DNA from: Paracyclopina nana
Taxonomy: Eukaryota > Arthropoda > Copepoda > Cyclopoida > Cyclopettidae
Length of the DNA: 64,000 bases
Direction: 5' to 3'
NCBI GenBank assembly: GCA_019096065.1
Contig: JAGUCH010000005.1
Location: 3,658,001-3,722,000, forward strand
Both the position numbers and the translations under genes were made by a program. This document shows positions 42,501 through 58,835 of the stretch, one piece after another (the stretch's first letter is position 1; each line of letters starts with the position of its first letter). The notes below the pieces were generated by a model that was given only the letters and a program-made list of their open reading frames with translations, had not been told where the DNA came from and did no database searches.

Positions 42501-44257
42501 TTGCCAAAAAAGCCAATCTTACTTCCAGCCTTGATGGGTGGCAGTAATAGGTCTTCCCATGGCCATTGTGTCAAATTAGCAAGGCTGCCATCATTGAAGA
42601 GCTTTTCATCTGGCAATTCATACAAATCAGCCTTTGTCCCCTCATGATCCAATTGAAGCTTAAGAGAGCAAGGATTGCCAGTGGTTGAAGTTGTGCCACA
42701 CGCATGATGAAAAGTCAACCTTGATCGCCTTTAAAATTTAACAAATTAAATGGCAACAATCTCTCATACTCGCAAAAGGCAAAAGCCCGTTCTCATATTT
42801 TTCTAGCTAGGCTCCTATAATGTTAAGCAAGGATCTTTGTAGGCCCATATCTCAACAGCTACTGAGCCGATCGGCACCAAATTTTGTAGGATTCGTCAGT
42901 AGACCCTAATGATTGTTCTTGCCAAGATTCATCAGGATTGAAGGCTGATTAGTGGAGGTCATTTTTTCCCGCAATAAATGTTTTAAAAGCAAAGCTGCAT
43001 TGCTTCACATTATAAACGGCCTCCAGTTGGGAGCTTCGGATCTCAACCAAATTTGGCACACAGCTGTGGATAGTCTCACTGAAGAATCCTACCAAGTTTG
43101 GTTTCAATCGGCTCAGCAATTGCTGTGATATTCGCTTCCAAAGAGCCTTGCTTAATATCTTAGGCTTTGCTTAACTAATATGAGAACGGGCTAAAGTCGC
43201 TAGATTTACTGTGTTATCTAGCCCGGCAACTTGAGCTAGGGCATTTGACATAGCAGGGCTACAGATACTAACAAAAATCAGCAATTGTTTGGCTTTTGGA
43301 GAACTTGAGCCATAAACTTCTCTAATATGTCATGATTTGCATTTACAAAAAATACTTGCTCAAAAAGCGCCATCTGACGGAAAAGTTTGTCCCTCCACTG
43401 GGTTATAGTTGAACTTACCTTAGGGCTGGAATCGGCTGTAAGATGATATGATTGTGAATATCCTTGATATTCTCAGGGGTCACGGAGTTGCATCCAAAAA
43501 GAAAATCTGCATGAAGGTCAAACATTTAGAGAGCTCTCTCAGTATTGTTATTTCATACTTTCGTTAGCTCGACTTGTAGTTCTGATGTATCTTGGATTTT
43601 TATCAGGGTGCGGCCAAATCGGAATTCGTAAGTTCTCTGGCGTTTTTAATTTTCCACAAGGCTCAGGCTGGTACAAAAATACGTTGTCATACACAGCCTC
43701 GGCATTCATCGGAAAATCAAACGTCGCTATTACAAACATTGATATTAATCAAAACTAATTTTTTTTTTGAATTCTCACAATTTCCTCCACATGCGTAGCT
43801 ATATGTGCTTGCCACAGGGGCGATGAATGAGGGTAAAACATCTCCATCATAAGCTGCAGCTGGATACAACACTAATGTGAATGAAGGGTATGCTAAAAAT
43901 ACCCAATAAAGGCCCCTCTCTGCATAAGTGAGTGAAATAAGTCGCGTAGGAATGGGATTAGCTCGGTCTGATAGCCAATACACTTGAGGCTGGTCGTAAG
44001 TCACTGCAATAAAAATAACGTGCTTTTTAAATTCACAGACCAGATGATGATTGATACCTCCGAACCAATAAAAGCTGCTAGAGGAAGTCATTTTCGAGTA
44101 GACGGGGACCCTTATAGGCCAACCACCAATTGATGCATCCACACCTGTATGGTCACCCAAATCTAGCAGAAAAATAGCAGCGGGAAAAATAGAGGAACAC
44201 AGAATTCAAGCTTACATGTGGCCAAATCCCCTATAAAGTAGGTATCCACTTCATTGC
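30584..44257 (-). CDS. large secreted mosaic protein (CTLD, FN2, WSC, LamG-like, sushi), main part
   Basis: This is the 3' bulk of a gene whose 5' end lies at 58234-58835, beyond the inserted retroelement. Some three dozen short exons with roughly 50-75-nt introns run from 44257 down to a TAA at 30584. Visible modules from N to C: a long unrecognised region with a possible PAN/apple unit (about 42.1 kb); a WSC domain (41.2-40.9 kb, CYCYKDLP and YLCGGP); C-type lectin domains at about 40.7, 38.4-37.7, 37.3, 36.3-35.7, 35.7-35.1, 35.0-34.7, 33.8-33.3 and 33.3-32.9 kb. Fibronectin type II modules lie at about 37.5, 36.7, 36.5 and 32.2 kb (CKFPFKYKGRLYDTC...WC). A LamG/pentraxin-like unit lies at 34.6-33.8 kb and five sushi modules at 32.0-30.7 kb. 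No transmembrane segment is seen. The make-up suggests an extracellular glycan- and matrix-binding protein. Exact orthologue unknown; exon edges approximate. Confidence 0.8.
39958..40102. repeat. foldback (MITE-like) element in a lectin-gene intron
   Basis: Near-perfect inverted arms of about 50 nt: TTGAGTTTATGTCGTTATGTAACATTAACTTCC at the left pairs with the sequence ending AGTTAATGTTACATAATGACTAAAACTCAA at the right. The loop is short. It lies wholly within an intron between exons near 40139 and 39916. No coding capacity. Target duplication not resolved. Confidence 0.75.
42784..43192. mobile_element. MITE-like element with long inverted repeats
   Basis: Terminal inverted repeats AGCCCGTTCTCATATT / AATATGAGAACGGGCT bound 409 bp. 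The inverted similarity continues well inside the element: GTTAAGCAAGG, CTTTGTAGGCCCATATC and CTGAGCCGAT each pair imperfectly with the other half. It sits in an unusually long (about 700-nt) intron of the lectin-mosaic gene. It encodes nothing. Possible 3-bp AAA flanks are too simple to count as a target duplication. Superfamily not assigned. Confidence 0.8.
44254..44257. repeat. target-site duplication, left copy
   Basis: TTGC here is repeated directly at 58234-58237 on the outer side of the other LTR. One more base (A) could belong to the repeat, giving ATTGC. The restored host frame is the same either way. Confidence 0.85.
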
Positions 44258-44493
44258 TATGATGAAATGGAGGTGAAGAACTGGGTTCGAACAGTTTTAT
44301 GAGTAGAAGAGTGATGAAACGGGTTGAGTATACTTTATTTGCTAGGGTGAAGTGAGCGAAGCAAACTTTAGCATACTGAAGTAAAAATGCAGGTAGAAGT
44401 AACATATACCAGCGGCGTGCGCGTAGAGCCAAAAAAAGAGAGATCGGGCGTCGTGACCTACTTGTGGTCGTCGTCTGGTTCCATTTCTTCATA
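44258..44493 (-). repeat. 3' LTR of the 14-kb element
   Basis: It is identical to the other LTR over 236 bp. Ends are imperfect inverted repeats (TATGATGAAATGG / CCATTTCTTCATA), with TG...CA two bases in. On the minus strand it holds a TATATG box (44403-44408) and, downstream, an AATAAA (44334-44339), which fits a promoter plus a poly(A) signal. It also reads open for about 79 codons in the frame of the host lectin exon. Confidence 0.93.
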
Positions 44494-44497
44494 GATA

Positions 44498-44504
44498 TCC
44501 CCCC
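44498..44504 (-). other. candidate polypurine tract
   Basis: On the minus strand GGGGGGA lies 4 nt upstream of the 3' LTR. It is short, and the gap is slightly unusual, but it is the only purine run at the required place for plus-strand priming. Confidence 0.4.
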
Positions 44505-44528
44505 GGAAGAAGAAGCTAGCCTTCCACG

Positions 44529-45094
44529 ATGAAGGCTAGGACCAGTCAGGTATGATTGAAGAAATGAATCACGACGCCTATAATAATGTGATTTTTCCAA
44601 TTTAGGTGTCGATTTGCATTGCCTATGTCGATCTTCTTATGATGATCCATCGTTTGCCCATGGACGAACTGGGGAATGTCGATGGGGTAGACCAGAGAAG
44701 TGTCAATTTTAGGTTGGAGGCCGCATCAGTGGTGAATACGTTGAAAAGGATCATTTTGTCATTGAAAAGGAGACAGTACGAGGAGGTGTGCCGGTATTTG
44801 AAGAGATCACCAATATTCAGGAGAAAAGTGCGGAGGGCTCTTGAGAAGAATCTTCACATTGACTTGTCATATTTCCGTGATCTGGTTTTAGAGGACCCCA
44901 ACCAAATAAGGGCAGCGTCATCTTCAAAATCCGGATCAGGCATTATGATGGAGACAAGAGAGAGTATTGAGATTACTATTTCAAATATGGGTGATGAAGA
45001 TGACCAAGTGGAAGCTGTTTCCAGGGAAGTCATGTTGTGTGATGAAATATCATTAGAGTATGATACTTTTGAGAATGAGAAAGATGATGAATAA
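44529..45094 (+). CDS. antisense accessory gene A of the retroelement, unknown
   Basis: Two exons, 44529-44549 and 44606-45094, join in frame through a 56-nt intron (AGTCAG|gtatga ... tttag|GTGTCG). They give 169 residues starting MKARTSQ. Without the splice the first usable ATG is at 44639. The N-terminal half is basic and probably helical (RRQYEEVCRYLKRSPIFRRK), and the C-terminal half is acidic. No membrane segment or known domain seen. It begins only 35 bp inside the 3' LTR on the strand opposite to gag-pol, so its promoter must be in or near that LTR, read in antisense. Function unknown. Confidence 0.6.
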
Positions 45095-45163
45095 ATTGTT
45101 AGTGATGTTTTTGGGCTGATCTTCTCCATGTGGACTTATTGTAGATTTCGTTGTGGGCCGGTA

Positions 45164-45664
45164 TTAAAACCTGTTTCTTGCTTCATGTCGGGCGAGTCCT
45201 CTTTGGCGGTTAGTAGTGGAGTTTCCCCTGAAGGCAAGCCTATAAAGTTTCTGTACTGTGTCTTCAATGGACTTCAATCTGCTTAATTCATCAATGTCCA
45301 GGATGAGTTCTTCAATGGAGTGTGGTTCGCAAATGAAATTGATCTTTTTGATTGGCGAATCCATAAGGAAGTGAAAATAGTTGTTGCAGAAAGAGTAGTT
45401 GATAATGATGCGACAAAATGTTCCGCGGTATTCTATGGTTGAGTTTGAGGTGGCTTCGACAAATGTCACTAAATTGAAGGCTTTTAAGATTTTAGAGATG
45501 CCAATGGTCACGTGAATGATTTGAGTTTTCTTCATTTTTCTTAATGAGATAATTTTGGCCACGATTGTAAACGCTCCAATGATCATGCAAATGAACGAGG
45601 CCAAGGTAAGCCATGTTTGCATGATTAGATTGGTACTTTCGAGCAATAGTTGCAAAAGATGCAT
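45164..45664 (-). CDS. small single-pass membrane protein frame of the retroelement
   Basis: Open frame of 166 residues from ATG 45664; an acceptor-like TCAAGCTAG lies just upstream, near 45692. One hydrophobic segment (LTLASFICMIIGAFTIVAKI, about residues 20-40) is followed by a basic stretch and a longer soluble tail ending Arg-rich. It is on the same strand as gag-pol but lies among the opposite-strand genes. I recognise no family. It could be a chance frame, though the clean hydrophobic profile and length argue for a gene. Confidence 0.5.
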   Translation of the reverse strand: MHLLQLLLESTNLIMQTWLTLASFICMIIGAFTIVAKIISLRKMKKTQIIHVTIGISKILKAFNLVTFVEATSNSTIEYRGTFCRIIINYSFCNNYFHFLMDSPIKKINFICEPHSIEELILDIDELSRLKSIEDTVQKLYRLAFRGNSTTNRQRGLARHEARNRF

Positions 45665-45983
45665 CTTTGTCTGGTAGCTGTTGTCAGGCAACTAGCTTGA
45701 ATTCGGCTTAGGAGTGCACGTATAGCTGAACAGACTTGTGGTGGCAACAGGTGAAGTCAGGAGTGTGGACCTGTAGCGGGCTGAATGGGCTGTATTAACC
45801 TGTCTCTTGCATGAGGTTGAGAAGCAGGGACATGAGGTCAACTTTTTAGGGTAGCATTCATAAGCCAGGTCATTCGAATTTTCATTCCCGGTCAGTCACC
45901 ATTACGGTTTTTTGTGAAGTCTTTGTCAAGGTAAGTTACACTTTAGCATTTTCTTCAGGGCTGTGGAAACATTTGATTTGTAG

Positions 45984-46472
45984 ATGGCTGATTTCATAAC
46001 GGAGCTTATTGCACATGGCCTCCAATTCTGGATGGCCAACGATTCTAGTCAAGAAGTAATTCGCCTTTTGAAGAGATTCCTTGTGGATTTGGAGGCGTTG
46101 ACTGAGGCTGCGTCGGGCTTGTCACCTCGTCTAAGGGCTCTTTGGGTCCTTGCCATGGCCATTCTGGCCTTGGCGTCACTTGACTATCGGATGGCATGGC
46201 GGGATTACTATGGAGGGCCAAGTAGAGTGGAAGCTGGTAGATGGCGACGAAGACTTTTGAGAAGGCTGATCTTGGCACTGATTGGCATCGTTATTGGCCT
46301 GGCTGGAGGCCTTGCCAGCCTTTTCTATGGAGTCCTCGTCTGGTCAGGGTCAACCAGGCGATACGGATTGATGGCTATGGTGTTGATGATCCTGGTGGTG
46401 TCACAAACCATGTCCTATTCGCCACCAGTTTCTCCATTCTGTTTCTTCTTCCCTCTTTTTCCTTTCTGTTAA
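45984..46472 (+). CDS. antisense accessory gene B, multi-span membrane protein
   Basis: The ATG directly follows a good acceptor (ATTTGTAG|ATGG). A matching donor (GTCAAG|gtaagt) at about 45930 implies a 5' UTR exon and a 54-nt intron. The 162-residue frame has three hydrophobic spans: ALWVLAMAILALASL, LILALIGIVIGLAGGLASLF and LMAMVLMILVV. An Arg-rich loop (RWRRRLLRR) lies between the first two. The extreme C-terminus (FCFFFPLFPFC) may be intronic pyrimidine tract read as protein, so the true 3' end may be spliced onward. By eye the region is more GC-rich than gag-pol. No family recognised. Confidence 0.55.
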   Translation: MADFITELIAHGLQFWMANDSSQEVIRLLKRFLVDLEALTEAASGLSPRLRALWVLAMAILALASLDYRMAWRDYYGGPSRVEAGRWRRRLLRRLILALIGIVIGLAGGLASLFYGVLVWSGSTRRYGLMAMVLMILVVSQTMSYSPPVSPFCFFFPLFPFC

Positions 46473-46565
46473 GCTTTTGTAAATAGATGTTTCCTCAGCC
46501 TTTTTAAGTTTGCTAGTTTTGCTTTACTGTCAATCACTTTGTTTAATCATTGCCTTTTCAGCGTT

Positions 46566-47470
46566 ATGTCGTCAGTTCAGCGTATGAACGAGTATCGGCT
46601 CAGTAAGGTAGCCTCGGAGGTCGGCGAGATCCGGAATGAGGTGTCCAAGTTTGTGGATCCGAATTGGCTTAAGGCTAATATGTGTCAGCCTGAAGAAGGT
46701 GTGGGGTCACTGTTGATTGGTGAGCTCGGTTTCTTGGTGGTGGTGGTGTACATGGTCCTCGTCTTCCTCGTCTTCCTCGCGTACATGGTGTACGGGTTTT
46801 TCACTCGTAAAGTAAGTTGATATGAATTTTAAAGGCAGCTTTCACTTTCACTGTTCCTGTGTTCTTCAAGGCTCTCCGGAATGTGTGGCTTGACATCTTT
46901 GTCAAGTTCCTGGCAGCTGTGTTCTTCCCGCTGACGTTTGGACCATTCCTGGGGTATGTCTTTCATGACATGTGCGGGAAGGAGCAGTTGCCAGTGAGGC
47001 CGAAGCCTACGGAGGCTGCTCAGACGTTGGCCAATTTGGTGCGCGTGGTCCTGCCTTACTTGTTAGCCACGAACTTCGATGGGAATGACGCGTTTGTGAG
47101 AGAGGTGTTGTCTGGCGAGTACCTCTCTCTCGTTTTCCACCCGCCAGGCTCCACAGAGAGGACAGTGTTGGTCCGTGACCTCATCCTCCCCCGTTTGCCG
47201 AGATGGCCCGAAGATGTGGAGTCAGGTCAATCGAGTTGGCCTACCCCATCAGCACCTTTTGAGGATGTCAACCTCGAGGATGGCATTTATGATGCTGTCG
47301 GCGATAACGGCGAGGTAGTGGCCTCGGCTGGACTGGCCAGTAATGGCAATGGCGTCGTCGGTGACCAGGAGGGTCAAGGGCAGCAGCCCTTTCGTCAAGG
47401 GGGGCCTGGATTCTTCCAGCCAGGTTGCCCCAACTCCAATGGAAGTCCCGAGTCGGAGGATGGCCATTAG
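46566..47470 (+). CDS. antisense accessory gene C, spliced membrane protein with acidic tail
   Basis: Exons 46566-46811 and 46871-47470 join in phase 0 through a 59-nt intron (CGTAAA|gtaagt ... cttcaag|GCTCTC). They give 281 residues. An acceptor (GCCTTTTCAG) lies 5 nt before the ATG, so there is probably a 5' UTR exon too. The N-terminus is a short charged helix. Two hydrophobic segments follow (LGFLVVVVYMVLVFLVFLAY and FVKFLAAVFFPLTFGPFLGY), then a soluble region and a Gly/Asn/Pro-rich acidic tail. The second segment spans exon 2, so the splice unites a two-pass membrane protein. No family recognised. It lies on the strand opposite to gag-pol. Confidence 0.62.
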
Positions 47471-48172
47471 GGCCAAGATGGCCCAAGAGAGGAGGTCAGC
47501 TCGAATGGCTGTCCTTTTACAGAAGAGGAAGCTTTAATCTAGTCACTTTGTTTAATAATTGTTATGATGTTAAGCCAGCAAATGACCAATATATGGCAAT
47601 TACTTTTGAAAGGTGTGATGTGACTGATTTTTGAAGATTCCTTATAGTTGACAGATTTACTTTCCTTATTATGGCGTCCGGAAGTAGGCCTGAGATGACT
47701 TGTCAAAACATCAGCTGATAGATGAATGAGGATGAATTTTCCCACGGTCCACATGACAGTTGTTGTTGTTTACTAATCATCAAGCCGTGTGAATCGAGCA
47801 GTTATTTTTAAGGCTAATTTGGGAAAATTCTTGCTTTGATGGTTTTGATCATTTTCAAAGATTTTGCGAAAATATAATCAGAGAATGCCATTACGCCATC
47901 GAGGGCGCCAATTGGTGAGGATTTTGGCGTTTGGATCCATGGAGAATCAGGTTGGAAAATGAAGTGTCTAGATCGAGCTATTTTTCCGACCAACTTAATT
48001 TTTGTTGACATTTTCCTAAAGCATGGCAAAACAAAGTGATTTTGTTAATTTTATTCGAAAGTGGATGCAAGTGATTCCAAATGCATTTTAATCAGTTTTA
48101 CACTGGGCCTTTTCAACTTGGGAGGCCGCAGTGACATCAGCGACGATTTTCTCAGTGGAAGAAGTGTTCACC
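47471..48172. other. convergence zone between opposing gene sets in the retroelement
   Basis: This 0.7-kb gap has no gene. The antisense cluster ends on its left and env-like gene 2 ends on its right. A minus-strand AATAAA (TTTATT at 48050-48055) lies about 120 nt past the env-like gene 2 stop and could end a subgenomic transcript before the accessory region. Confidence 0.5.
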
Positions 48173-48303
48173 TCAATGTTGTCGGTCATTTTCGACGTTG
48201 TTGCCGTCAGAATTGTTGTCATCAGCGACGATTTTCTCAGTGGAAGAAGTGTTCACCTCAATGTTGTCGTCATTTTCGACGTTGTTGCCGTCAGAATTGT
48301 TGT
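48133..48303 (-). repeat. 84/85-bp tandem repeat at the end of env-like gene 2
   Basis: Successive units begin at 48135, 48220 and (partial) 48304. The middle unit is 84 bp (28 codons). The 5'-coordinate unit has one extra G (GTCGGTC against GTCGTC), making 85 bp. The encoded motif is VADDNNSDGNNVEND. The extra base shifts the frame, so the protein ends with RQH instead of continuing the repeat. Confidence 0.85.
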
Positions 48304-49399
48304 CATCAGCGACATGAACTTCAACTGCGGTTTCAACGTGAATAGTGGGAGTGTTGGGTAGAGTTGAAGGTGAGTTTCCAGGTTTTGGCATCATCTCCAT
48401 GAGCTTGGCCTTTTTGTGCTTCATGGCCTCAAGTTTACGCTCGTTTTTGATAATGCTTTTCTCCACAGACTTTAAGATGTCCTTCGAAGGGTCAAGAATA
48501 TCCTCGTCGAAGTTTTCATTTTCCATGGAGTCCTTGGCTTTCCTCATCTTGGTAAGTCGTACTTGGATTCTGGATCTCAACTTTTTGTCTTGACGTTTCA
48601 CGTATTTTCTAGCTCTGGTTCCAAGCTGTCTCAGAAGGAAAAAGTTGTTCTCTGAGCACTTATGAAGGAGATATGTGAAGAATGCCAAAGCCAGGAGGAC
48701 TAAGATCGAGGTGGGGATGGTGAGCCACATCGTCAAGGTGGGATTGTTTCTCAGAGCGGTGTCGAATCCAGGGGTTCCAATCAATTCGTCATAAATGGGG
48801 ACCGTACCAGTCTTGACATCTTCTAGTGAGGCAATTGTAGCTTGGAGCTCAATGTTGAGGACCTTTTGATTGGATAGATCCTTTTGGAGGTTAAGGATTT
48901 CTGTATTGAGGCGTTCTTCTTGAGCTGACATGGTAATTAGCATATCCTCAACCTTGGATTTGGCATAATCATAGAGTTTTTCCAGGATGATGACTTTTCT
49001 TTGACAAGGGACATCACGGAGACCTTGATTGGGATTCAATCTGGATGAAGCATTGATCAAATCTTGAGAGGCCACACTTATGTTTTGAAAAAGAGCCTCT
49101 TGCTCCTCAAGATCGGTGTCTGCCGTTGGATCCAGATAAGTAGATTTGTTATTCTCCTTCTCTTCTGTTATCATGGCAGCATAGGTTGTTTGGCACTTGT
49201 CAAGTTGATCAGTCAAGGTGGTAATTTTGGTCTTAAATTCCTGGTTGTTTTCCTTGAGTTCAGCTTCGGATGCAAGACAGGTGGTTAGTCTTTGTTGATT
49301 GAGGACATAGTTATTGAGGAATTCAATCTCAGAGATTGATTTGGCTTCTATGGCAGAAATCAATCTTAAGGTGATGACGAAGAATTGGAGTGGACTCAT
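48173..49399 (-). CDS. env-like gene 2: type I coiled-coil membrane protein
   Basis: From ATG 49399 the frame opens with a probable signal peptide (MSPLQFFVITLRLISA). A longer frame from ATG 49486 exists but would bury this signal. The ectodomain of about 220 residues is helical with heptads and several N-glycosylation sequons (NIS, NAS, NKS). One transmembrane span (LTIPTSILVLLALAFFTYLL) is followed by a basic, then acidic cytoplasmic tail that ends in the tandem repeat. The layout is that of a viral or cellular type I surface protein. I find no similarity to a known fusion protein. It follows env-like gene 1 on the same strand. Confidence 0.75.
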   Translation of the reverse strand: MSPLQFFVITLRLISAIEAKSISEIEFLNNYVLNQQRLTTCLASEAELKENNQEFKTKITTLTDQLDKCQTTYAAMITEEKENNKSTYLDPTADTDLEEQEALFQNISVASQDLINASSRLNPNQGLRDVPCQRKVIILEKLYDYAKSKVEDMLITMSAQEERLNTEILNLQKDLSNQKVLNIELQATIASLEDVKTGTVPIYDELIGTPGFDTALRNNPTLTMWLTIPTSILVLLALAFFTYLLHKCSENNFFLLRQLGTRARKYVKRQDKKLRSRIQVRLTKMRKAKDSMENENFDEDILDPSKDILKSVEKSIIKNERKLEAMKHKKAKLMEMMPKPGNSPSTLPNTPTIHVETAVEVHVADDNNSDGNNVENDDNIEVNTSSTEKIVADDNNSDGNNVENDRQH

Positions 49400-49568
49400 G
49401 TTGTTTCTTCTTGGTAGTAGATGAGACTGAGGTTTTGCAATTTGATAGTGTATCTTCTTCGTGCTTAATGTGCAATAATGGCTCATTAAAATTGCTGTTG
49501 TGTTGAACTAGATGTAAAATGCTTGGCTATACTGTATTTGAAGGCGAAAAGTTGATGTTGCATATCCA

Positions 49569-51194
49569 TTAGTCATAGTAGGGGTGAATTTTGCTTGCTG
49601 CTTGAATTTCATCCTCACTTGTGTAACAGGAATAGTTGCTGTGTCTCCTGGGATCAATGCTATGGACATGAGCAACATCAATCACTTTTACAGATCTTTT
49701 GGCTCTTGGGCTTCTTCTTGGTGGTCTTGAAGGTTTTGTGTTGTCCATTTGTTTCTTTGATTTTGAATCTTGAGTCACAAAATAGACATCACTTTTATCA
49801 TTTTCCCCCTCGCTTGAAGAGTCCTTTTTTGATGGGAGAAAAGTGGCCATTTCAGTTTCATTACGATTGGTAGTTTTGGGACTCGCCTTGTTGGCAGGTA
49901 CTTTAAAAGCAACAAATCTTTTTCTTTTATGGCACATAAATCCATCTTTCCGACAGCTTCTTATGACGAGGAAAAGGCTTGTGATCAAGGTGACAATTCC
50001 AGATATACCGCCTATGATACTAAATATAATATCCAGCACTTTAGGATTTGTATGTTTAGTGATCCAATCTGGCAGTTTTTCTTTTGCCTTATCAAAAATC
50101 TCAGTGATGTTGATTGATGGCTTATCAGCTGGAAGTGTTTTTATCACCTTTGGCCTTTTTGTCTTAGTGGGTATAGAGCCATTAATAACTGTAGTAGGAG
50201 GGTTGATTTCAGCGGAGTTTTGTTTTTCTTCTTCATCACAAATGCAAATTTGGTTTCCATCCATAGATTTTGCACTATTATCCAATCTCTGAATAATATT
50301 GTCCGCTGTGACATAATCATTCACTAGATTAGGAAGAAGGTCAAAGATCAGCTCCATATTGGGTGGAGTAGATTCTAGTAGATTCTTCACTTCTTGTAAA
50401 GGGTGGTCCAGAAAGAGTTCATCCACATTGCTTTCTTGATATTGATCGCACCAATCAGCTTGATTCAACTCTTGGATTAACTCTTTTCCATTTGGGAAGT
50501 TGTCTTTGATAGTAGTGAGTTCTGCTGAGTAAACTTTTCGAAGGGAAGTGTACTTTTCATAATTGTCCGGAATGGCAGCTTCACACAGTGTCAAAGCTTG
50601 TCCGTTCCTGCAAGCCACATCTTCAATTACAAAAACAGTGTTGTCGTCGTAATTGTTTGGTACGACGATCCGATAGCACTTGTTTTCATCAAATAAAGTA
50701 GGCTTGACACTTAGATTCTCAACATTGTCTCCCCAGTATAGTGGAAATGGTTCACCGTCGAAGTAGTAGGAATCAGTTCTTTTGTCATATTGAAGATTTA
50801 CCCAGATTTTCTTGTCATCGAATTTGAAGTTAGGTGGGTCTCTCACACCTGCCTCTATCTTCTTTAAAACAGATGCAAAATCACCTTTGGGCTTGATGAA
50901 AGTCATCTTCTCGATCTCGCAGACCAATTTTGAAGTGGCAAACTTGTCTTGAACATTGATCAGCTTGTAAACTTTGTCGTTGACAATGCGACCTTTTGCA
51001 AAAGTCTCCACATCAGTAATTTGGTTCGAGATGGCATCAACTAGAGGCTCTAGGAGCTGATGTAGTTGATTGAGTGTTTCTGACAAGGACACAATGCTGT
51101 AAGCCTTGCAGAAGGGAGTGCTTGTCACACTCGTGTTGTGGAGCAGTGTTGCCAACGCCAAACTCCACAGAAGTTGTTTCATCCTTGTACTCAT
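49569..51194 (-). CDS. env-like gene 1: type I membrane glycoprotein
   Basis: Uninterrupted 541-residue frame from ATG 51194. A signal peptide (LLWSLALATLLHNTSVTS) leads a Cys-containing ectodomain of about 380 residues with N-glycosylation sites (NGS, NIT, NLS). A single transmembrane segment follows (IFSIIGGISGIVTLITSLFL), then a long basic tail with proline motifs (SRPPRRSPR). It occupies the env position downstream of pol, and an acceptor-like TTGACTTCTAG lies just before the ATG, so a spliced env mRNA as in errantiviruses is likely. I see no clear furin site or named fusion domain. Assignment rests on position and topology. Confidence 0.75.
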   Translation of the reverse strand: MSTRMKQLLWSLALATLLHNTSVTSTPFCKAYSIVSLSETLNQLHQLLEPLVDAISNQITDVETFAKGRIVNDKVYKLINVQDKFATSKLVCEIEKMTFIKPKGDFASVLKKIEAGVRDPPNFKFDDKKIWVNLQYDKRTDSYYFDGEPFPLYWGDNVENLSVKPTLFDENKCYRIVVPNNYDDNTVFVIEDVACRNGQALTLCEAAIPDNYEKYTSLRKVYSAELTTIKDNFPNGKELIQELNQADWCDQYQESNVDELFLDHPLQEVKNLLESTPPNMELIFDLLPNLVNDYVTADNIIQRLDNSAKSMDGNQICICDEEEKQNSAEINPPTTVINGSIPTKTKRPKVIKTLPADKPSINITEIFDKAKEKLPDWITKHTNPKVLDIIFSIIGGISGIVTLITSLFLVIRSCRKDGFMCHKRKRFVAFKVPANKASPKTTNRNETEMATFLPSKKDSSSEGENDKSDVYFVTQDSKSKKQMDNTKPSRPPRRSPRAKRSVKVIDVAHVHSIDPRRHSNYSCYTSEDEIQAASKIHPYYD

Positions 51195-51270
51195 AGTTGG
51201 GCTAGAAGTCAAAGTAGAGTGTAGAGGTTATCATTCATCCATCATCATTTGTATCACATTTGTCTAAGAT

Positions 51271-54200
51271 TCATTCTGCGAAATGTACAGTAGGTTCATA
51301 TGGCATTGCTTGTTCATCTTCTTCATCATCCAGGAACATCTGGTCAATGATTGGAAGCTGAGAGTTGACACTTTGAGCTTTTTCTTGCTCCTTTAGTCTT
51401 TTTGATTCACCACGTGTCATTACACGGCCCTTTGCAATGGGCTTGAAAATGTCCTCATCGAAGAATTCAGGGGTCTTTTGGATTTCCATGTACGGTTCGA
51501 GAGACTCCAATGTGAAGTGTGATCCAAGCATGAATCTAACACTTAATGGCAAATTTCCATAGAGCTCAGCGAAGCGAGGAGAGCATTTCTTTAGGAGATT
51601 CTTGTGAGCAGGAAAGACAACTCCATTGAAACTTTTTAGAAGGCATGTGTTTTGCAAGTTCTTGAGGACCAGGTAAGGGCTCGTGTGATAACGTACCCAA
51701 ATCTTTGGCTTTTCGTGTTTTCTCTTATCAAGCATGAAAACGTAAGTGCCAGGCTCATAGTTGATGTCTTTTCCAGGAATCTTTTCTCTTGCTTGCTTTT
51801 TGAGCTGAGTGTTCTTATTGATTGCTTCTTGTATAATGGCGTCATGAGCTTTCCAGATGTCTTTGATTGTGCTTGGTTCGACAATGTCCTTTTCTGTAAC
51901 TGGCCTTAGTCTGTCGTGATCAACTCCAAAGTAAGCATAAATGGGGCTAATGTTGCCAATTCTTGGTGAGGGGCGAGTGTTCAAAGAAAGTTGAACAAGA
52001 TACAAGAGTTTGATCCAGGGTAGTTTAAGTTGATTGGTCAAAATCCGGATGAGGTTGCTGACTTGTTGAACTGCATTTTCCACAATTGAGTGAGCTTGAG
52101 GAGAGTATGGCATTGTCACATGTGGGTGGATGTCATAATACTCCAGAAGTCTTCTAACTTTTGATGAAGAGACAAGGTTGGAGGCACCATCAGAGATGAG
52201 GATTTTAGGTGGTGAAAACACTGCTATGATGTATTGTTCAATAATCTTGGCAATTTCGTCACCAGTCGCATTCTTGACGGGTACTATGATCTTGTAACCA
52301 GTAAAGTACTCAATCATGACAAGGATTTTGGAGCTTTTATAAAACTCAGGATAGCCTTCGAGGATGTCAATTGAAAAGGTATGGCCTTTTGGTGATTCTC
52401 CATATGAGATAGGTTTTAGCTTGGCCTTTCCAAGTCGATTGGGTTTGGCGAGTTGGCAAAGATAACATTGGATTGTGAAGTTTAAAGCTGACTTAAATAA
52501 CTTGGGATGATAATGAGTCATAGCAGCCATTCGTGCCAAGCTTGTTCCTCCTATATGACAATCCAAATGAAGATAGGCTAAAAGTACACCAAGAAGAGAA
52601 TCGGGAATATAAATAAGGCTCCTTTCAGTGGATTGGTCTGGATTTTGAACAGTTTTGTATAGAACATTTTGTTCAAAAGCAAAGCCTTTTGGTGGATTTC
52701 TCCTCATTTTTTGAATATTGGCATCCTTTTCTTGTTCCATTGCGATGTTATCAAGAGTCAGCAGTTCAGCGAGTTCATGTTTTGGATTTTTCTTACCAAT
52801 GTAGTTAATTTGGATCTTCTCCGGAATCGAGTCAATGTAGGAAAAAGTCTTTTTAGGTTTTTTCTTGCGTGTCCCAAGCTTTTGTTCTCCATTGAACTTG
52901 GGTTCAAAACCTTCTTCATAGACTTTTTCTAGATATTCTTGGAGATCATTTAAAGTGACAACCTTACCAAGCTTGAACGGTGAAGTGATGAGAATAGGTT
53001 CTAGTTGACCATCATTTTGAACAGCTTTATACACTATGGGAAAGTTTCTAGTCATGGCATCTGCACACAAATTGTATTTTCCTTGGCAATGTAGGAAGAT
53101 GCATTTGAAGGGCATTGAGCTAATCGTGATGCACCATCTCACTAGCTTTGGAGGTGGATTTGGGGACAGCTTGGATGATTTGAGTATCCACAGAAGTGCC
53201 ATGTTATCACCACAAACAAAAGTCGTCGGAACTCCATGAAGTAGATGAGCAAAGTGTTCGAGTGATTTCACAAGGGCAAGGCATTCAAGTTCCAGAATGG
53301 TATATCTGGATTGCTGCTTGTTGAGCGTTGCACTGTAAAAACCCACAGGACAAATTATGTGTAATTTGTCCTTTTCCTGAAGATATGTAGAGATGGGTTC
53401 CAATTCGTCAAGTTCTTCATGTCTGATGTCTCTGATGAAGAGCTCTTCGTTGTTGGTTTTCAAGTTACTTTCATATTGCTTCAATGCTTCATCTATTGGT
53501 GACAGTGTTACCATTCCTGGATTATTTTTTCCAGATGGAGGGATGACTGGATGTTTTGTGTTCAATTTTGACTTGCTATCGAGGGATTCCTCTTGATAAA
53601 GTTCTTCATGCCATTTGGAGACTTCCTCCCTGGAGAAGGACTTGATCTGATAGCAGTAGCCAGCGATGGCATTGAGGCTGCTGTCATAATGGAGATAGAG
53701 TGGTTCGTCATAGTTCACAAAGTACACCGTGGTAGAGTTGATAATGGCATTTTTAATATCGTCAAAGGCTTGATCTTGTTCGGTACCCCAGGCAAAGTCT
53801 TCATCTTTCCGTAAAAGTTTGGTGAGTGGCTTCAATTTTTCAGAAAAGGCATAAACTAAGTTAGCGTTCCATTGAGCCAATCCGATGAAGGACATCAAAG
53901 TGTGTTTGTCCTCAGGCTTTTTAAAGTTCTTGACAGCAGACAAGTGTCGAGGAAGAATGGAAAATCCATTTTGGTCCAAGTGTTTGCCGAGAAGTTCGAT
54001 GCTTTTTTGGGCAAACTGGAATTTTCTTGGTCGTAGTTTGATTCCAGCATTGTAAAGTGTTCTGAGTATGATTTTGGTTTGCTGAATGTTGAGTTCAAAG
54101 CTTTTTGAATAAAGACAGACATCATCAGAGTAGTTGCACACAAAGTTGCTCTTACACGGAGATTTGTCTGTAGTATCAAGGATGCGGCTCATGCAGTAAT

Positions 54201-55767
54201 TGTAGTAGGATGGAGCATTAGAGAGACCAAAGATCATTCGAAGGGGAAGCCACTGACCTGAATTGGTGACAATTGCACATATCTTTTGTGCTCTCTCTGT
54301 CATGGGAATAGAGAGAAAGGCTGAGGCAATGTCAATGGTGGTGAAGTATTTGGGATTGGCCAATGAGATTTCTTCGATGATGGTGTTAATTGGCTTGTAG
54401 GGGAACTTTACAGGTTTTGTTACCTTGTTCAGTTCACGAGCATTATACACTGCTCTTAATGTTCCATTTCTTTTTGTGACCAAGAAACATGGCATGGCCC
54501 ATGGTGAAAATCCTTTTTTCAGAACTCCAATTTTCTCAAGTTCAGCGAGTTGGTCAGCCAGTTGAGCTTCTCTGAGCGGGTCCAAGGTGTAAGGTTTGAT
54601 GTAGACAGGTTTTTCAGTTGTAGTTTCTATGTCAAAGAAGATTTCAAACTTTTCATGGATCTTTCCAATGTCGGATTCATGTGTGCTGAAAAGATTGGGT
54701 GTTTCCTTTTCGATGAATGATATGATGTCTTCAACTGCAGATTTATCGATGTGAGAATGATTATCACGAATAATCATTTTCCAGTCATCTTTTTCTTCTG
54801 TAGTCAAGCATGGGAATCCGGTTGGTTCAACTGTCTCTTCATCTATTTGGTTGGTGGCTTCATCCTCAGTGGTTACTTTTCCAATGATTTCATTGCAGGA
54901 AAGTGGGAATCTTGAAGTAGACTTGTTTTCCATGGTGGTAGTGAATTTTCCCCCTCTGACTGAAAGTGATCCAACTGTCTTTAAGGGTGATTCACTGGGA
55001 ATTGACAAGTTATATTGGCCATCCGGAAGATCCAGAGTGCCAGTGACCTCATTTAATCCGGGTAGAACTTCGATCTCGTCCACTGAAGCCCATGAGTCTA
55101 AGCCTTCCGGAGATGGCAGAGACTTTTGTTCAGATCTTTGCTCAAAGCTTATGATGAGGTTTGTTCTACCTTTTTGTTGGATTATTTGAAGGTTGTGAGT
55201 GGTTATGAAATCTAAACCAAGTAGATTGCTTGAAGAGGCAATGAAAAATGTGTGCTTAAACTGAAATCCTTGTAGTTTGAAGGTTAGTTCGATTGGACAC
55301 TGGTATTGTGGTATTTCATTCTTTTGGACATCGACCAATGTGAGTTGTTCATTAGAAAGGGAGTACTTGTCTTTAGGAAGCTCTTGGAAAGTTTTGACGG
55401 AGAGAATTGAGACTTGTGCACCTGAGTCGACAGTGAAGTCGACTTTTAGGCCAAAGTCTGTTATCAAAGCTGTTTTTAGAGGACTTTCGTTGATCACTGG
55501 AAGATCGAGTCCTTCTAAAATGATATCTGGAGTAGGAATTTTGGAGACTTGCGAAATTTCTTGATAGTCGAATGAGGATGCGATTTCCAAGGCAGCATCT
55601 GAATCTAACCAGTCAGGTTCGATTGAAGAGGAAATGGTGGGGTTGTCATCATCTTCAGTGTCAATATCTGCGAGTGAAATGTCCGAGAACGTGACTAATG
55701 ATATTTCTTCTTTTACAGTTGCTGTTTTTGGAAAGGGCCGAGCTAGTTTAAAGGAACTGCTCGACAT
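51271..55767 (-). CDS. pol: pol: protease, reverse transcriptase, RNase H, integrase
   Basis: Uninterrupted frame of 1,498 codons. Aspartic protease DSG lies at residues 114-116. RT palm: IDIASAF near 479 and YSDD at 546-549, where Ty3/gypsy elements more often have Y-[LIV]-DD. The RNase H acidic residues include D695, E826 and the GDN near 854; the spacing from D695 to E826 is about 90 residues longer than usual. The integrase zinc knot is H1067, H1071, C1101, C1104, and its catalytic triad is D1134, D1193, E1230. A GPY/F-like module (SPYLVLKN) follows, with no chromodomain visible. The frame is -1 relative to gag and overlaps its last 25 nt. Expression as Gag-Pol by frameshifting is most likely. 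The product would copy RNA into DNA and integrate it. Confidence 0.95.
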   Translation of the reverse strand: MSSSSFKLARPFPKTATVKEEISLVTFSDISLADIDTEDDDNPTISSSIEPDWLDSDAALEIASSFDYQEISQVSKIPTPDIILEGLDLPVINESPLKTALITDFGLKVDFTVDSGAQVSILSVKTFQELPKDKYSLSNEQLTLVDVQKNEIPQYQCPIELTFKLQGFQFKHTFFIASSSNLLGLDFITTHNLQIIQQKGRTNLIISFEQRSEQKSLPSPEGLDSWASVDEIEVLPGLNEVTGTLDLPDGQYNLSIPSESPLKTVGSLSVRGGKFTTTMENKSTSRFPLSCNEIIGKVTTEDEATNQIDEETVEPTGFPCLTTEEKDDWKMIIRDNHSHIDKSAVEDIISFIEKETPNLFSTHESDIGKIHEKFEIFFDIETTTEKPVYIKPYTLDPLREAQLADQLAELEKIGVLKKGFSPWAMPCFLVTKRNGTLRAVYNARELNKVTKPVKFPYKPINTIIEEISLANPKYFTTIDIASAFLSIPMTERAQKICAIVTNSGQWLPLRMIFGLSNAPSYYNYCMSRILDTTDKSPCKSNFVCNYSDDVCLYSKSFELNIQQTKIILRTLYNAGIKLRPRKFQFAQKSIELLGKHLDQNGFSILPRHLSAVKNFKKPEDKHTLMSFIGLAQWNANLVYAFSEKLKPLTKLLRKDEDFAWGTEQDQAFDDIKNAIINSTTVYFVNYDEPLYLHYDSSLNAIAGYCYQIKSFSREEVSKWHEELYQEESLDSKSKLNTKHPVIPPSGKNNPGMVTLSPIDEALKQYESNLKTNNEELFIRDIRHEELDELEPISTYLQEKDKLHIICPVGFYSATLNKQQSRYTILELECLALVKSLEHFAHLLHGVPTTFVCGDNMALLWILKSSKLSPNPPPKLVRWCITISSMPFKCIFLHCQGKYNLCADAMTRNFPIVYKAVQNDGQLEPILITSPFKLGKVVTLNDLQEYLEKVYEEGFEPKFNGEQKLGTRKKKPKKTFSYIDSIPEKIQINYIGKKNPKHELAELLTLDNIAMEQEKDANIQKMRRNPPKGFAFEQNVLYKTVQNPDQSTERSLIYIPDSLLGVLLAYLHLDCHIGGTSLARMAAMTHYHPKLFKSALNFTIQCYLCQLAKPNRLGKAKLKPISYGESPKGHTFSIDILEGYPEFYKSSKILVMIEYFTGYKIIVPVKNATGDEIAKIIEQYIIAVFSPPKILISDGASNLVSSSKVRRLLEYYDIHPHVTMPYSPQAHSIVENAVQQVSNLIRILTNQLKLPWIKLLYLVQLSLNTRPSPRIGNISPIYAYFGVDHDRLRPVTEKDIVEPSTIKDIWKAHDAIIQEAINKNTQLKKQAREKIPGKDINYEPGTYVFMLDKRKHEKPKIWVRYHTSPYLVLKNLQNTCLLKSFNGVVFPAHKNLLKKCSPRFAELYGNLPLSVRFMLGSHFTLESLEPYMEIQKTPEFFDEDIFKPIAKGRVMTRGESKRLKEQEKAQSVNSQLPIIDQMFLDDEEDEQAMPYEPTVHFAE

Positions 55768-57635
55768 TGGTGATCAAGATGGAAACCTTGCATGCATTTG
55801 GAGCATGCATTGAAGCTAGGAGTGGAGCTCTTGTAAATGCAATTTTCAGCATTGAATCCACACAGTAAATGTCCACATCTCGCACAAGAAATAGAGATTC
55901 TTTCAAGAGTTTTCAAAGAGATGCGATACTTTCCCGGTTGAGTTTCAACAAATACTGGAAAGTCAATTGGTGCATTTTCAGGAATAATGCGTCCAAGATT
56001 GTCAAACTTGTAGGGAATTCGCGAATGTGGATCATCCAGCATCTTGAGCTTTGGGCCTCTCTTTCTGGTGTTTCGTTCATACGAATCGATTTCCATGAGA
56101 AGAACATTCATAAGAGGGCCTTTTTTGTCAAACTTGGCTGCTATTTCAGAAAATTTGGGGTCTGAAATTTTGTAGACAATCAGCTTAGACTTTTGAGGTC
56201 TGTTGTATCCTCCCTTTTCGTTTGGGTAAGTCTTGGGCTGATTTTCGAGTGCAGCCACAGTTTTCATCAATAACTGGTTCGTTTCTTTCATTTCAGAGAT
56301 GATTTGATTATTAGCAGCGAAATGGCCATTGGAGTGGTTGGAAGAACCGGTTTTTATGCTTGCGGTTGTGGTATGCTCATTATTTATGGCTTGAGGGGCC
56401 GCTTCCAAGTTTTTTACTACCCTTTTTGTCATGGAAGGATGGGATGTAACCATGTTTTTGAACGTGTTCAAATCCATGGGTGGAACAAAGGGTGATATTT
56501 TTTGGAGTTCCGCAATCTTTGTCCGTTCAAGGTTAACTGCCTTTTGTACCTCTGAAGGCAGCTGGGGAATGACATGATCGATAACTAACTTAGTCAAGGC
56601 ATCGTTCCTTTGTTCTGGGAAGGCCAAACGAGCCTTTTCGACTATCTTGGTTAGCGAGTCATCGACCTTTTTCATGTCAATTTTGGAGTCATAAAACTCG
56701 CACAAGAGTTCATCTGGTCTCTTGCTGCAGCAATAGCTCTCAAGGATTTCCTTGATAGCTTCATTAATATCATCATGACTCTTGAAAATGTTGGTGAAAG
56801 TGTCCTTGAGTTGAGAGTTAGTCTGGTGTATAATGAGGTTGGCAAACTGCTTGGCTGTTAGCTCGCCTGCGTGTCGTTCAGCCATAGCTTCAATAATGTG
56901 CCTCACATCTGGGCTTGCCTTGCTCAACCTTGGGAACTCTTTCAAGTTTTCTCTTTTTAGTTGGACAAAAAGCGCGTTGGACTCTCTTGTATCTGATCCG
57001 GGAATGAAAGGGACGGTTTTCAGGCATGGAATTCTTTGCGTTTGGATGAGTTTTGGAATGAGTTGAAGGAAGTCGTTCCTGAGTTCTGCTGCGATAATAT
57101 CTCGTTCCATTTCCACCCTGTTTTGGACTGAATTGTGACGAGCATATTCCTTCAGATCCTTAAGGGACTTTTCATATTTATGAGTTTTCCCTTGGAGAAG
57201 GTTGCTAGTTCCATAAGCCAAGCTTTGGAAGAGTGGGGCTACTCCAGCATTGGCATGAGGAGATGGTGCTCGAGAGTCTCCTCTGATGGAGGATGCCACA
57301 CTTGATCGGCGAGATCTTCTTGGCTCAGGTTGGTCTTGTGGAGGTGAGTCCGGAGATGGTTCCATGCGCTGTAGAATGGCCTTGTTTGACTCATGAACAT
57401 CATTCAATGCTCTGGTGATGGTTGAGAAGCTGGTGTCGACGTTTTCTTGCATTTTGAGGAGGTTTCTCTCAAGCTTCTCAATTTTCCTGTTGGTGGCAAG
57501 TTTTGCTCTGCGATCTTGTGAAACTTCATTTGGAGGCACGGCCATGCGAGCTGCAATGCCTAGTAGCTCATTTTGTATGGCGTTCTCTAAAGTCTCTTCG
57601 TGGTGGTCATGATGATGAGCACCAGATTCAGCCAT
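55743..57635 (-). CDS. gag: gag polyprotein
   Basis: Uninterrupted frame of 630 residues from ATG 57635 (MAESGAHHHDHHEE). The N-terminal third has a helical, probably coiled-coil region and an Arg/Ser linker. The central part is alpha-helical, as expected for matrix and capsid. The C-terminus lacks the common CX2CX4HX4C knuckle. It has instead a paired Cys-rich module (CARCGHLLC, later CSKCMQGFHLDHQC) that could bind zinc and RNA. It follows a 362-nt leader and ends at a TAG that abuts the slippery heptamer. Confidence 0.9.
   Translation of the reverse strand: MAESGAHHHDHHEETLENAIQNELLGIAARMAVPPNEVSQDRRAKLATNRKIEKLERNLLKMQENVDTSFSTITRALNDVHESNKAILQRMEPSPDSPPQDQPEPRRSRRSSVASSIRGDSRAPSPHANAGVAPLFQSLAYGTSNLLQGKTHKYEKSLKDLKEYARHNSVQNRVEMERDIIAAELRNDFLQLIPKLIQTQRIPCLKTVPFIPGSDTRESNALFVQLKRENLKEFPRLSKASPDVRHIIEAMAERHAGELTAKQFANLIIHQTNSQLKDTFTNIFKSHDDINEAIKEILESYCCSKRPDELLCEFYDSKIDMKKVDDSLTKIVEKARLAFPEQRNDALTKLVIDHVIPQLPSEVQKAVNLERTKIAELQKISPFVPPMDLNTFKNMVTSHPSMTKRVVKNLEAAPQAINNEHTTTASIKTGSSNHSNGHFAANNQIISEMKETNQLLMKTVAALENQPKTYPNEKGGYNRPQKSKLIVYKISDPKFSEIAAKFDKKGPLMNVLLMEIDSYERNTRKRGPKLKMLDDPHSRIPYKFDNLGRIIPENAPIDFPVFVETQPGKYRISLKTLERISISCARCGHLLCGFNAENCIYKSSTPSFNACSKCMQGFHLDHQCRAVPLN
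55746..55752 (-). promoter_or_regulatory. -1 ribosomal frameshift slippery site, gag to pol
   Basis: Read on the minus strand in the gag frame, the sequence is T TTA AAC immediately followed by the gag stop TAG. It fits the X XXY YYZ rule exactly, and a -1 slip here enters the pol frame (TTT AAA CTA). No obvious strong downstream stem or pseudoknot was recognised by eye. Confidence 0.88.
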
Positions 57636-57997
57636 TTTTGAACCTAATGTACGTGAAAGTAAGTTGTTGATAGGAAAGAACTTCTATGCTCCGCCCAGAT
57701 TGCCTTAAGGGCTTTGTTTGAGCTGTAAGTCACAACACGGGACTCTGAATTAAGGGCCTCTTTTAACTTATATGGGCGCGTAGCCGAAAGTGTCCTTTTT
57801 TGAGGTAGCTAATCTCGTCTAAGGCAAGGTTACCTTTATGGTTCAGATGGAGTGATGGAGCACTGTACGACTTTGTTGAGGGAGTCGATCCAAATTAGAC
57901 TGGCTAGGTCTTCTTTAGATGATATTATTTCCCCCCCGCTCTGGAAAAAGCACTTCACTTCCACTCGTGATCTTGATACAATTCCGTGGGAGCCAAC
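57636..57997 (-). other. gag leader with candidate primer-binding site
   Basis: This is untranslated leader between 5' LTR and gag. Starting 2 nt inside the LTR, the minus strand reads TGGCTCCCACGGAATTGT (57978-57995). It begins with the TGG required to pair with a tRNA CCA end. I could not match it to a particular tRNA from memory, so the primer is undetermined. Confidence 0.5.
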
Positions 57998-58233
57998 TAT
58001 GATGAAATGGAGGTGAAGAACTGGGTTCGAACAGTTTTATGAGTAGAAGAGTGATGAAACGGGTTGAGTATACTTTATTTGCTAGGGTGAAGTGAGCGAA
58101 GCAAACTTTAGCATACTGAAGTAAAAATGCAGGTAGAAGTAACATATACCAGCGGCGTGCGCGTAGAGCCAAAAAAAGAGAGATCGGGCGTCGTGACCTA
58201 CTTGTGGTCGTCGTCTGGTTCCATTTCTTCATA
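57998..58233 (-). repeat. 5' LTR of the 14-kb element
   Basis: Identical copy of the 44258-44493 repeat. TATA-like box at 58143-58148 and AATAAA at 58074-58079 on the minus strand. Transcription should start between them and run into the gag leader. The host lectin exon reads straight into this LTR without a stop, and the LTR poly(A) signal could truncate host transcripts. Confidence 0.93.
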
Positions 58234-58237
58234 TTGC
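58234..58237. repeat. target-site duplication, right copy
   Basis: Partner of the TTGC at 44254-44257. Four-base duplications are usual for many Ty3/gypsy elements. Confidence 0.85.
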
Positions 58238-58835
58238 GAGCTTCTACTAAGCCATAAAACCCCAAGCTTTTACAATAGGCCATTGCATCAAAATAGCTCT
58301 TAGTGTCAGAATCTTTCATAAAGCACACTTTATCCCCAGAAGGACTTGTTATGAGCCCCATTAAGCATAGACCGCCTGTAGCATAACGAGCATAAAAAAA
58401 TAACAATACTGCATGGTAATGGATAATACTTTTGAATCTTTTCCCGTAATGCAATAGGAAAACATTATCTCCAGCTGTAAATACTCTATTTGGTTCATTG
58501 TTCATGTTATCATATTCTAGCAATGTAGGGTCATAAGTTCCACTGTAAAATACATTTCCTGCTCCAGTCAGGTAGCCTTCCGACCCTTCATTGAGCCTAT
58601 CTCTCCTTAGCACTAAATCAAAGGCAAATAAGCATAAGTATTTCGCAATTGTTCTTCACTTGCCTTCAACGTCAGAGTAGTCGTAAATGGCGTATCTCTT
58701 TGATAACTAGCATAGAAATTGGAAAAGTTTTGACCAATGGCCTTTTATATAATCAAAAGAATTACTTACGTTAGGATATGATAATACCAATTCGAAAATT
58801 AAGGCCAAAAGGCCTCGGTGTATAAGTGGTGCCAT
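58234..58835 (-). CDS. 5' exons of the interrupted lectin-mosaic gene
   Basis: ATG at 58835 opens a probable signal peptide (LLALIFELVLSYPN). Donors and acceptors of the short exons fit in frame (PN|gtaagt; ataaaag|GCCATTGG; GGCAA|gtgaag; gatttag|TGCTAAG). The last exon runs to 58234, where the retroelement enters after GLVEAR. A further 54-nt in-frame segment (gtattatcc...gctacag) inside this exon has splice signals and may be an intron. The coding sequence resumes in the same frame at 44257 with NEVDTYFIGD, so both pieces belong to one gene. In this allele the product should be truncated or fused to LTR-encoded residues. Confidence 0.75.

Follow-up and report, generated by a model that had tools for sequence, protein, structure and literature searches.

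A 14-kb Ty3/gypsy-type retroelement of Paracyclopina nana with a probable ambisense gene plan

Introduction

Retroelements and retroviruses are usually taken to code on one strand, with no more than one antisense gene in any region. A stretch of 64,000 nucleotides from the copepod Paracyclopina nana (contig JAGUCH010000005.1, positions 3,658,001 to 3,722,000; hereafter the window) raises the question of whether such an element can carry a module of protein genes that runs against its own genomic RNA. Positions 44258-58233 of the window hold a 14-kb Ty3/gypsy-type long terminal repeat (LTR) retroelement whose genomic strand is the minus strand, and an earlier note, made from the sequence alone, had seen open frames converging on the plus strand between its env-like genes and its 3′ LTR. 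Starting from the observed structure, copy number, frame-specific purifying selection and intron conservation, we read this locus, with a probability of about 0.7, as a recently active LTR retroelement of the Metaviridae-like kind with ambisense coding, including an internal promoter, the spliced genes A and B, and membrane-protein roles for the products.

Results

A mixed-strand module between ORF4 and the 3′ LTR

Between ORF4, the last of the large minus-strand genes, and the 3′ LTR, the plus strand is open from stop to stop over 162, 162, 115 and 214 codons. Plus-strand frames of at least 110 codons sum to 653 codons here, compared with a mean of 72 in 1000 dinucleotide shuffles of 44494-48173; none of the shuffles reached 653, and none held three frames of at least 150 codons. 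The module is laid out as follows.

44639-45094, plus: gene C, 151 amino acids (aa), no transmembrane segment by hydropathy; acceptor-like site at 44605/44606
45164-45664, minus (sense strand): gene D, 166 aa, N-terminal hydrophobic segment
45665-45930, unstranded: conserved non-coding stretch from the start of D to the A/B leader donor, proposed bidirectional promoter and leader exon
45931-45983, plus: predicted leader intron, AAG/GTAAGT ... GTAG/ATG
45984-46472, plus: gene A, 162 aa, two hydrophobic segments by hydropathy
46566-46811, plus: gene B exon 1, 82 codons, one strong hydrophobic segment
46812-46870, plus: gene B intron, 59 nt, phase 0
46871-47470, plus: gene B exon 2, 199 codons

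Since D, on the minus strand, sits between C and A on the plus strand, the module is mixed-strand. None of its proteins has a Pfam domain over the cut-off; A came closest with DoxX_3 at E 0.047, under the cut-off, and the other plus-strand frames matched no family.

The element is young and present in eleven copies

A search of the 92-Mb genome with the LTR returned 23 places, which resolve into 11 pairs plus a single diverged place (79%). Ten pairs are spaced 13.6-13.7 kb apart and one pair 10.1 kb. The LTRs of each pair align without a mismatch over 231-233 nt (one pair has two gap columns), and 4-bp target duplications lie outside the TA...TA termini in all 11 copies, so that the paired LTRs and short duplication (4-6 bp) expected of a Ty3/gypsy element are found in every one. 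Because the two LTRs of every copy lack mismatches and all copies have 4-bp duplications, the copies must be young. Nine of them are 0-1.8% apart and the C1 copy is 2.6-3.3% diverged; most of the differences among the nine probably arose in replicating lineages, not by decay in place. The full 1500-codon pol frame is open in three of the 11 copies and is shifted, interrupted or shortened in the rest. The remaining features of the window copy are these.

44254-44257, unstranded: left target-site duplication TTGC, read from the element's flanks
44258-44493, minus: 3′ LTR, 236 bp, termini TATGATG...TTCATA in plus orientation
48173-49507, minus: ORF4, 444 codons, one transmembrane segment by hydropathy, long N-terminal part, charged tail
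49569-51227, minus: ORF3, 552 codons, one transmembrane segment near the C-terminal third by hydropathy
51271-55773, minus: pol, 1500-codon open frame with protease (PR), reverse transcriptase (RT), RNase H and integrase
55743-57683, minus: gag, 646-codon open frame, one CCHC knuckle near the C-terminus
57979-57995, minus: putative TGG-type primer-binding site adjoining the 5′ LTR, from sequence only
57998-58233, minus: 5′ LTR, 236 bp, identical to the 3′ LTR at 44258-44493
58234-58237, unstranded: right target-site duplication TTGC, read from the element's flanks

The full-length 14-kb element of the earlier note, with identical LTRs, a TTGC duplication, and open gag, pol and two membrane-protein genes, is thus borne out. 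Pfam searches together with reading of the sequence gave the pol domain order PR-RT-RNase H-integrase, with the motifs VDSG in PR and YSDD in RT; the integrase core, at 31.0 bits, fell slightly under the Pfam cut-off of 32.6, and the protease matches were likewise under the cut-off. The best Protein Data Bank (PDB) match of pol is Ty3, at E 1.7e-45. A Pfam search with gag gave nothing above the cut-off. The label 'env-like', which the earlier note had given to ORF3 and ORF4, holds as far as position and membrane topology go, and for ORF3 these suggest no more than a candidate envelope gene: neither protein has a Pfam match over the cut-off, the best PDB match of ORF3 lies at E 0.86, and ORF4 has none at E 1. 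The predicted structure of ORF3, with a mean pLDDT of 33.5, was not used.

The module region (45900-47600 on the plus strand) is present in 10 of the 11 copies at 95-100% identity. The earlier note had held that copies without the plus-strand frames, or with broken ones, would speak against the module; with 10 copies retaining the region, the proposal came through.

Genes A, B and D are under purifying selection

To ask how the frames have fared among copies, we counted nonsynonymous (N) and synonymous (S) variants and derived dN/dS from the variant sites of nine copies, leaving out the C1 copy, whose frames are broken; for ORF3, ORF4 and pol, the C1 copy and a deleted copy at C3:9795072-9805442 were left out. 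The P-values count each variant site as one event, and the copies are closely related. A and B together carry 16 N and 42 S variants, where about 70% N would be expected from the same mutation spectrum, giving a dN/dS of about 0.16 (P 3e-11) that stays within 0.15-0.18 when any single copy is omitted. The signal is spread over A (3 N, 12 S; dN/dS 0.11, P 9e-5), B exon 1 (5 N, 10 S; 0.20, P 0.002) and B exon 2 (8 N, 20 S; 0.18, P 1e-5), and D gave a similar value (7 N, 19 S; 0.15, P 4e-6). By codon position, the variable sites fall 13/6/39 in A and B and 4/3/19 in D. When the five other frames over A and B were scored in the same way, they gave 1.67, 4.27, 1.27, 0.29 and 5.55, the 0.29 belonging to the antisense frame that shares third positions; no minus-strand frame of at least 100 codons overlaps A or B.

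For comparison, pol over 51271-52725 has 10 N and 26 S variants (dN/dS 0.16), ORF3 has 9 N and 14 S (0.26, P 0.001), and ORF4 over 48320-49507 has 15 N and 14 S (0.44, P 0.02). A and B are under purifying selection among copies, as strong as that on pol, and D is equally constrained. The expectation of the earlier note that the plus-strand frames would show dN/dS below 1 is upheld for A and B and falls short of significance for C. Its accessory module of mostly membrane proteins, coded against the genomic RNA, likewise stands for A and B, which are antisense and selected, and has to be redrawn for D, which is sense and just as constrained.

These counts bear on whether the plus-strand frames are functionless, arising by chance or as a by-product opposite a non-coding 3′ region. 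The GC skew of 0.07-0.21 over 44-58 kb of the window can lengthen open frames, and the frames are broken in several copies; a chance origin predicts neither frame-specific purifying selection as strong as that on pol, nor lengths beyond all 1000 shuffles, nor an intron position common to a distant homologue (see below). The idea is strongly contradicted for A and B and may hold for C, and overall we find it hardly credible.

Opposite ORF3 and pol, the plus strand has three further open frames, 105-168 codons long, at 49556-49873, 49786-50292 and 54761-55189. Tested as a whole, with pol covered over 51271-52725, the frames opposite ORF3 and pol gave no sign of constraint beyond the frame sharing third positions.

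Splice signals are kept among copies and the B intron recurs in a distant relative

The leader donor AAG/GTAAGT lies at 45930/45931, and genes A and B each have a predicted acceptor just before the ATG, at 45983/45984 for A and 46561/46562 for B. The donor, both of these AGs and the GT and AG of the B intron persist in 10 of 10 copies. In one copy, 3 nt are missing at the B intron acceptor, with the AG and the frame intact, and in the C1 copy 3 nt are missing next to the acceptor preceding B. Two of 53 sites vary in the leader intron and three of 59 in the B intron, so that the introns as wholes are not significantly conserved. The good splice signals that the earlier note ascribed to a plus-strand set of frames are therefore real in that the sites persist in all 10 copies; what does not hold is the single strand of the set, D being on the minus strand.

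A relative of the module was found at C3:1093710-1095327 (within a stretch we call L063), where an A-like frame is followed by B-like exons in the same order as in the element; the A-like frame is open and B ends early. Window A matches this locus at 23% (E 3e-4), a single pairwise match, and B exon 1 matches at 26% (E 0.002). B exon 2 aligns with exon 2 of the relative (C3:1094896-1095108, L063:6897-7109) at 41% over 61 residues with E 2e-14. Both exon 2 alignments begin at exon residue 6, which places the B intron at the same position in this distant relative. Read by eye, L063 also has a similar donor and spacing before its A-like gene and an acceptor directly before the ATG of B.

A conserved stretch between D and A is a candidate internal promoter

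Across the nine copies, 45665-45930 has variants at four of its 266 sites, whereas third codon positions in genes A, B and D vary at 58 of 612 (Fisher P 5e-6). The plus strand of this stretch has TATA-like and initiator-like words at 45721 and 45793 and at 45870, 45882 and 45892, which are weak evidence; the same patterns gave no hit on the minus strand of 45665-45930. An antisense promoter in the 3′ LTR, as in human T-cell leukemia virus (HTLV), was also considered, and the conserved internal stretch suggests that transcription would start elsewhere. In the spacer at 47471-48131, minus-strand poly(A)-type words occur at 48092 and 48055, and the plus-strand ones are weaker.

Low variability outside the genes would also fit a selected product that is an antisense RNA, or a double-stranded RNA controlling the element, with the proteins secondary. 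The non-coding stretches of the element do vary little, and antisense transcripts without coding capacity are described for Drosophila hydei micropia and others in the portions of the source covered (PMC7264820). Selection that follows codons, with variable sites at 13/6/39 by position, is not predicted by RNA function alone, and we regard this explanation as very unlikely.

Relatives of the module genes occur elsewhere, once beside another gypsy family

Are A and B genes of the element, or a pair that it picked up? A-like fragments lie at four further places in the genome, and an A-like fragment at C3:4886172 is about 2 kb beyond a stretch bearing PF24664. When B was compared with 5.8 billion proteins, none of 458 candidates matched at E 10. 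ORF3 has two database relatives, at 98% and 56-58% identity, and ORF4 is confined in the genome to the 11 copies, save for one marginal match at E 0.018.

At C7:5619-5622 kb, a stretch of about 3.2 kb (positions 2316-5478 of L062, which is C7:5617001-5626500) holds B-like exons and, behind them on the same strand at C7:5619-5620 kb, a gene 26-27% identical to ORF3; no A lies beside the broken B. A further piece at C7:5671197-5671808 is 71% like this ORF3 relative. The stretch sits in a copy of a different gypsy family, which has a Monjiviricetes (chuvirus-type) glycoprotein as its envelope (PF24664, E 1e-72), and we read it as an insert, since its two sides adjoin in the other copies listed. 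B and ORF3 relatives have thus become linked, in sense orientation, to a different retroelement. Internal duplications in the stretch, including a 113-bp sequence repeated upstream of each gene, and the broken B frame suggest that the arrangement may be secondary. Among the at least 73 PF24664 stretches, it is the only one adjoined by ORF3 and B relatives.

Independently of the module, the PF24664 glycoprotein occurs in at least 73 stretches of the genome (70 of 466 candidates scored), many of them open frames of about 815-860 codons such as L062:5608-7491, and where checked (L061 and L062) it lies downstream of a gypsy-type pol.

The outside pieces, namely A then B at C3:1093710-1095327, B then an ORF3-like gene at C7:5619-5622 kb and the four A-like places, could mean that A and B are a separate gene pair, from the host or from a different virus or element, that was taken up in antisense and serves the host or its own spread and not the retroelement, with selection acting mostly before capture. 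The variants we counted lie among copies of one element, which means that selection acted inside it. Moreover, the ORF3 relative beside B on C7 is what a virus-type gene set would give, and neither of the two outside places read (L062 and L063) has A and B both intact. Capture of this kind is in our judgement unlikely.

The pol belongs to a separate clade among the proteins retrieved

A search with pol residues 330-1300 returned 63 proteins. Ten of them (P0004-P0013) cover 96-100% of the query at 31-35% identity, P0014 covers 79%, and later matches cover at most 42%. In an RT tree of the 55 rows, from 64 proteins, whose RT stretch was long enough, rooted at the midpoint, window pol and P0004-P0015 form a clade of 13 with support 100/96, apart from the other 42 rows. 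These 12 proteins come from JGI and ENA contigs. The new lineage that the earlier note suggested is supported to this extent: the pol sequences appear separate from the other gypsy-type pols retrieved, in a comparison set without the named-clade references of GyDB. A search of pol against IMG/VR viral contigs gave nothing useful, and the genome has no closer family among the 31 of 676 candidates scored, the next pols being 28-29% identical to window pol. In pol residues ~700-800, before the main RNase H match, positions H741, P742, P745, P752 and P759 are invariant in every one of the 12 pols aligned, which suggests a clade-specific insert.

With respect to named groups, errantiviruses have an env related to the baculovirus F protein; ORF3 and ORF4 have no Pfam match over the cut-off, at which a very diverged F protein would be possible. 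Retand elements encode antisense TRP28 (PF04195), and the plus-strand frames here have no Pfam family over the cut-off. Troyka was rejected, as its definition in the portion of the source covered has a 3-bp duplication and CG...CG termini (PMC12440569), and the element has 4-bp duplications and TATG...CATA.

Repeats and flanks of the element

Tandem 84/85-bp repeats occupy window positions 48132-48313, at the C-terminal end of ORF4, and vary in extent among copies. Minus-strand open frames border the element on both sides, at 58236-58655 and 43717-44205, without a Pfam match at E 0.1, and the element may interrupt a host exon. The flanking genes resemble animal genes (G-protein pathway suppressor, fibronectin type II, C-type lectin, B-box).

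Discussion

In the ambisense plan we favor, the 5′ LTR, on the high-coordinate side, would drive a minus-strand genomic RNA coding for gag and pol, with ORF3, ORF4 and D probably expressed by splicing or from subgenomic RNAs. An internal promoter between D and A (~45665-45930) would yield a plus-strand pre-mRNA with a short leader exon, which could be joined to either A or B, with one further intron removed from B. Because the intron signals are on the plus strand, the genomic RNA would keep the B intron unspliced and reverse transcription would preserve it. A, B and D would be small membrane proteins whose loss lowers the spread of the element, and they would most likely work together with ORF3 and ORF4 to release particles, pass the element from cell to cell or control superinfection.

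Several observations count against this plan, beginning with the fact that its plus-strand transcripts, promoter and protein roles are predictions. The copy at C3:9795072-9805442, possibly a non-autonomous derivative, lacks 45314-48912, and with it A and B entirely and D and ORF4 in part; its LTRs are identical. The module may thus be dispensable for transposition, or the deleted copy may have been helped by others or deleted afterwards. We rejected this copy as an ancestral, module-less state, since its gap runs from within D to within ORF4 and closes at a 7-base overlap, which makes a deletion the likelier origin. Despite identical LTRs, several copies are broken, the open frames among the 10 copies numbering nine for A, seven for B exon 1, nine for B exon 2, 10 for C and eight for D; in one copy A and B are both broken, and so are its pol and ORF3. 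C itself, with 9 N and 7 S variants in the nine copies (dN/dS ~0.51, P 0.14), is not significantly constrained. The 10 copies are closely related, which leaves few variants for testing, and adding the C1 copy raises A and B to 48 N and 56 S (dN/dS 0.35, P 1e-7). Antisense frames sharing third positions are also low (pol 0.18, D 0.28, A and B 0.29), so the dN/dS test tells frame better than strand, and the strand of A, B and D is assigned from the open frames and splice signals. The orientation of B is not fixed either, as its relative and that of ORF3 lie on one strand in L062. When the genome was searched with the A-like protein of L063, window A was not found at E 1, so that homology between the two is argued from one pairwise match and position. 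Finally, the spacers 44493-44638 (1 of 146 sites variable) and 47471-48131 (15 of 661) are also below third positions, and low variability alone is no mark of a promoter.

A more far-reaching version, which we put forward tentatively and consider somewhat doubtful, is that the element represents a deep, unnamed animal lineage with a true ambisense plan. In it, a bidirectional promoter would give sense D and alternatively spliced antisense A/B, whose products would form, with ORF3 and ORF4, a multi-protein envelope or transfer machine needed for cell-to-cell spread.

What sets this locus apart from the usual one-strand genome is a module in which two or more antisense genes stand beside a sense gene, under selection comparable to that on pol. 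The locus offers a case for how a reverse-transcribing element could keep an intron-bearing gene, by placing it against the genomic RNA, and a new set of predicted membrane proteins for the question of how animal LTR elements pass between cells.

Comparison with known systems

Among the matches listed from the open-licence literature (titles and the starts of abstracts, which do not establish absence from print), none described an animal Ty3/gypsy-type element with a spliced multi-gene antisense protein module. The antisense plan as such is not unique: antisense genes near the 3′ LTR are described for Grande, RIRE2, Retand and deltaretroviruses in the portions of the sources covered. The plant Ty3/gypsy elements Grande, RIRE2 and Retand, which are nearest in plan, have a long region between pol and the 3′ LTR with conserved open frames antisense to gag-pol; according to the same passages, a promoter in the region upstream of maize Grande gene23 drives its transcription, and most Retand clusters encode antisense TRP28 proteins predicted to bind DNA (PMC7264820, PMC11963269). 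In contrast to these, A, B and D carry hydrophobic segments, B is interrupted by an intron, the module includes a gene in sense orientation, and pol is followed by two genes for membrane proteins.

Deltaretroviruses share with the element a spliced antisense gene near the 3′ end, predicted in our case. As far as the source was covered, HTLV-1 hbz and HTLV-2 aph-2 are spliced accessory genes that start in the 3′ LTR, and their products are regulators with nuclear localization (PMC10186651). Here, the start is likely internal and the products look like membrane proteins.

Errantiviruses, Dingle and the chuvirus-glycoprotein family of the same genome resemble the element in that gag-pol is followed by membrane glycoprotein genes (PMC7854359, PMC12440569, in the parts covered). 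The chuvirus-glycoprotein family differs in having ORF3 and B relatives beside a single one of its stretches; the next pols in the genome are the 28-29% identical ones given above. By description, not by sequence, an animal likeness to the small membrane proteins lies in the MDG1 group of Metaviridae. There, the passages covered describe sORF2 of 412 and Stalker2 as a small membrane protein with an accessory role, linked to transfer between cells, with LTR-to-LTR transcripts that include sORF1 and sORF2; antisense coding is not described in those passages (PMC11952523).

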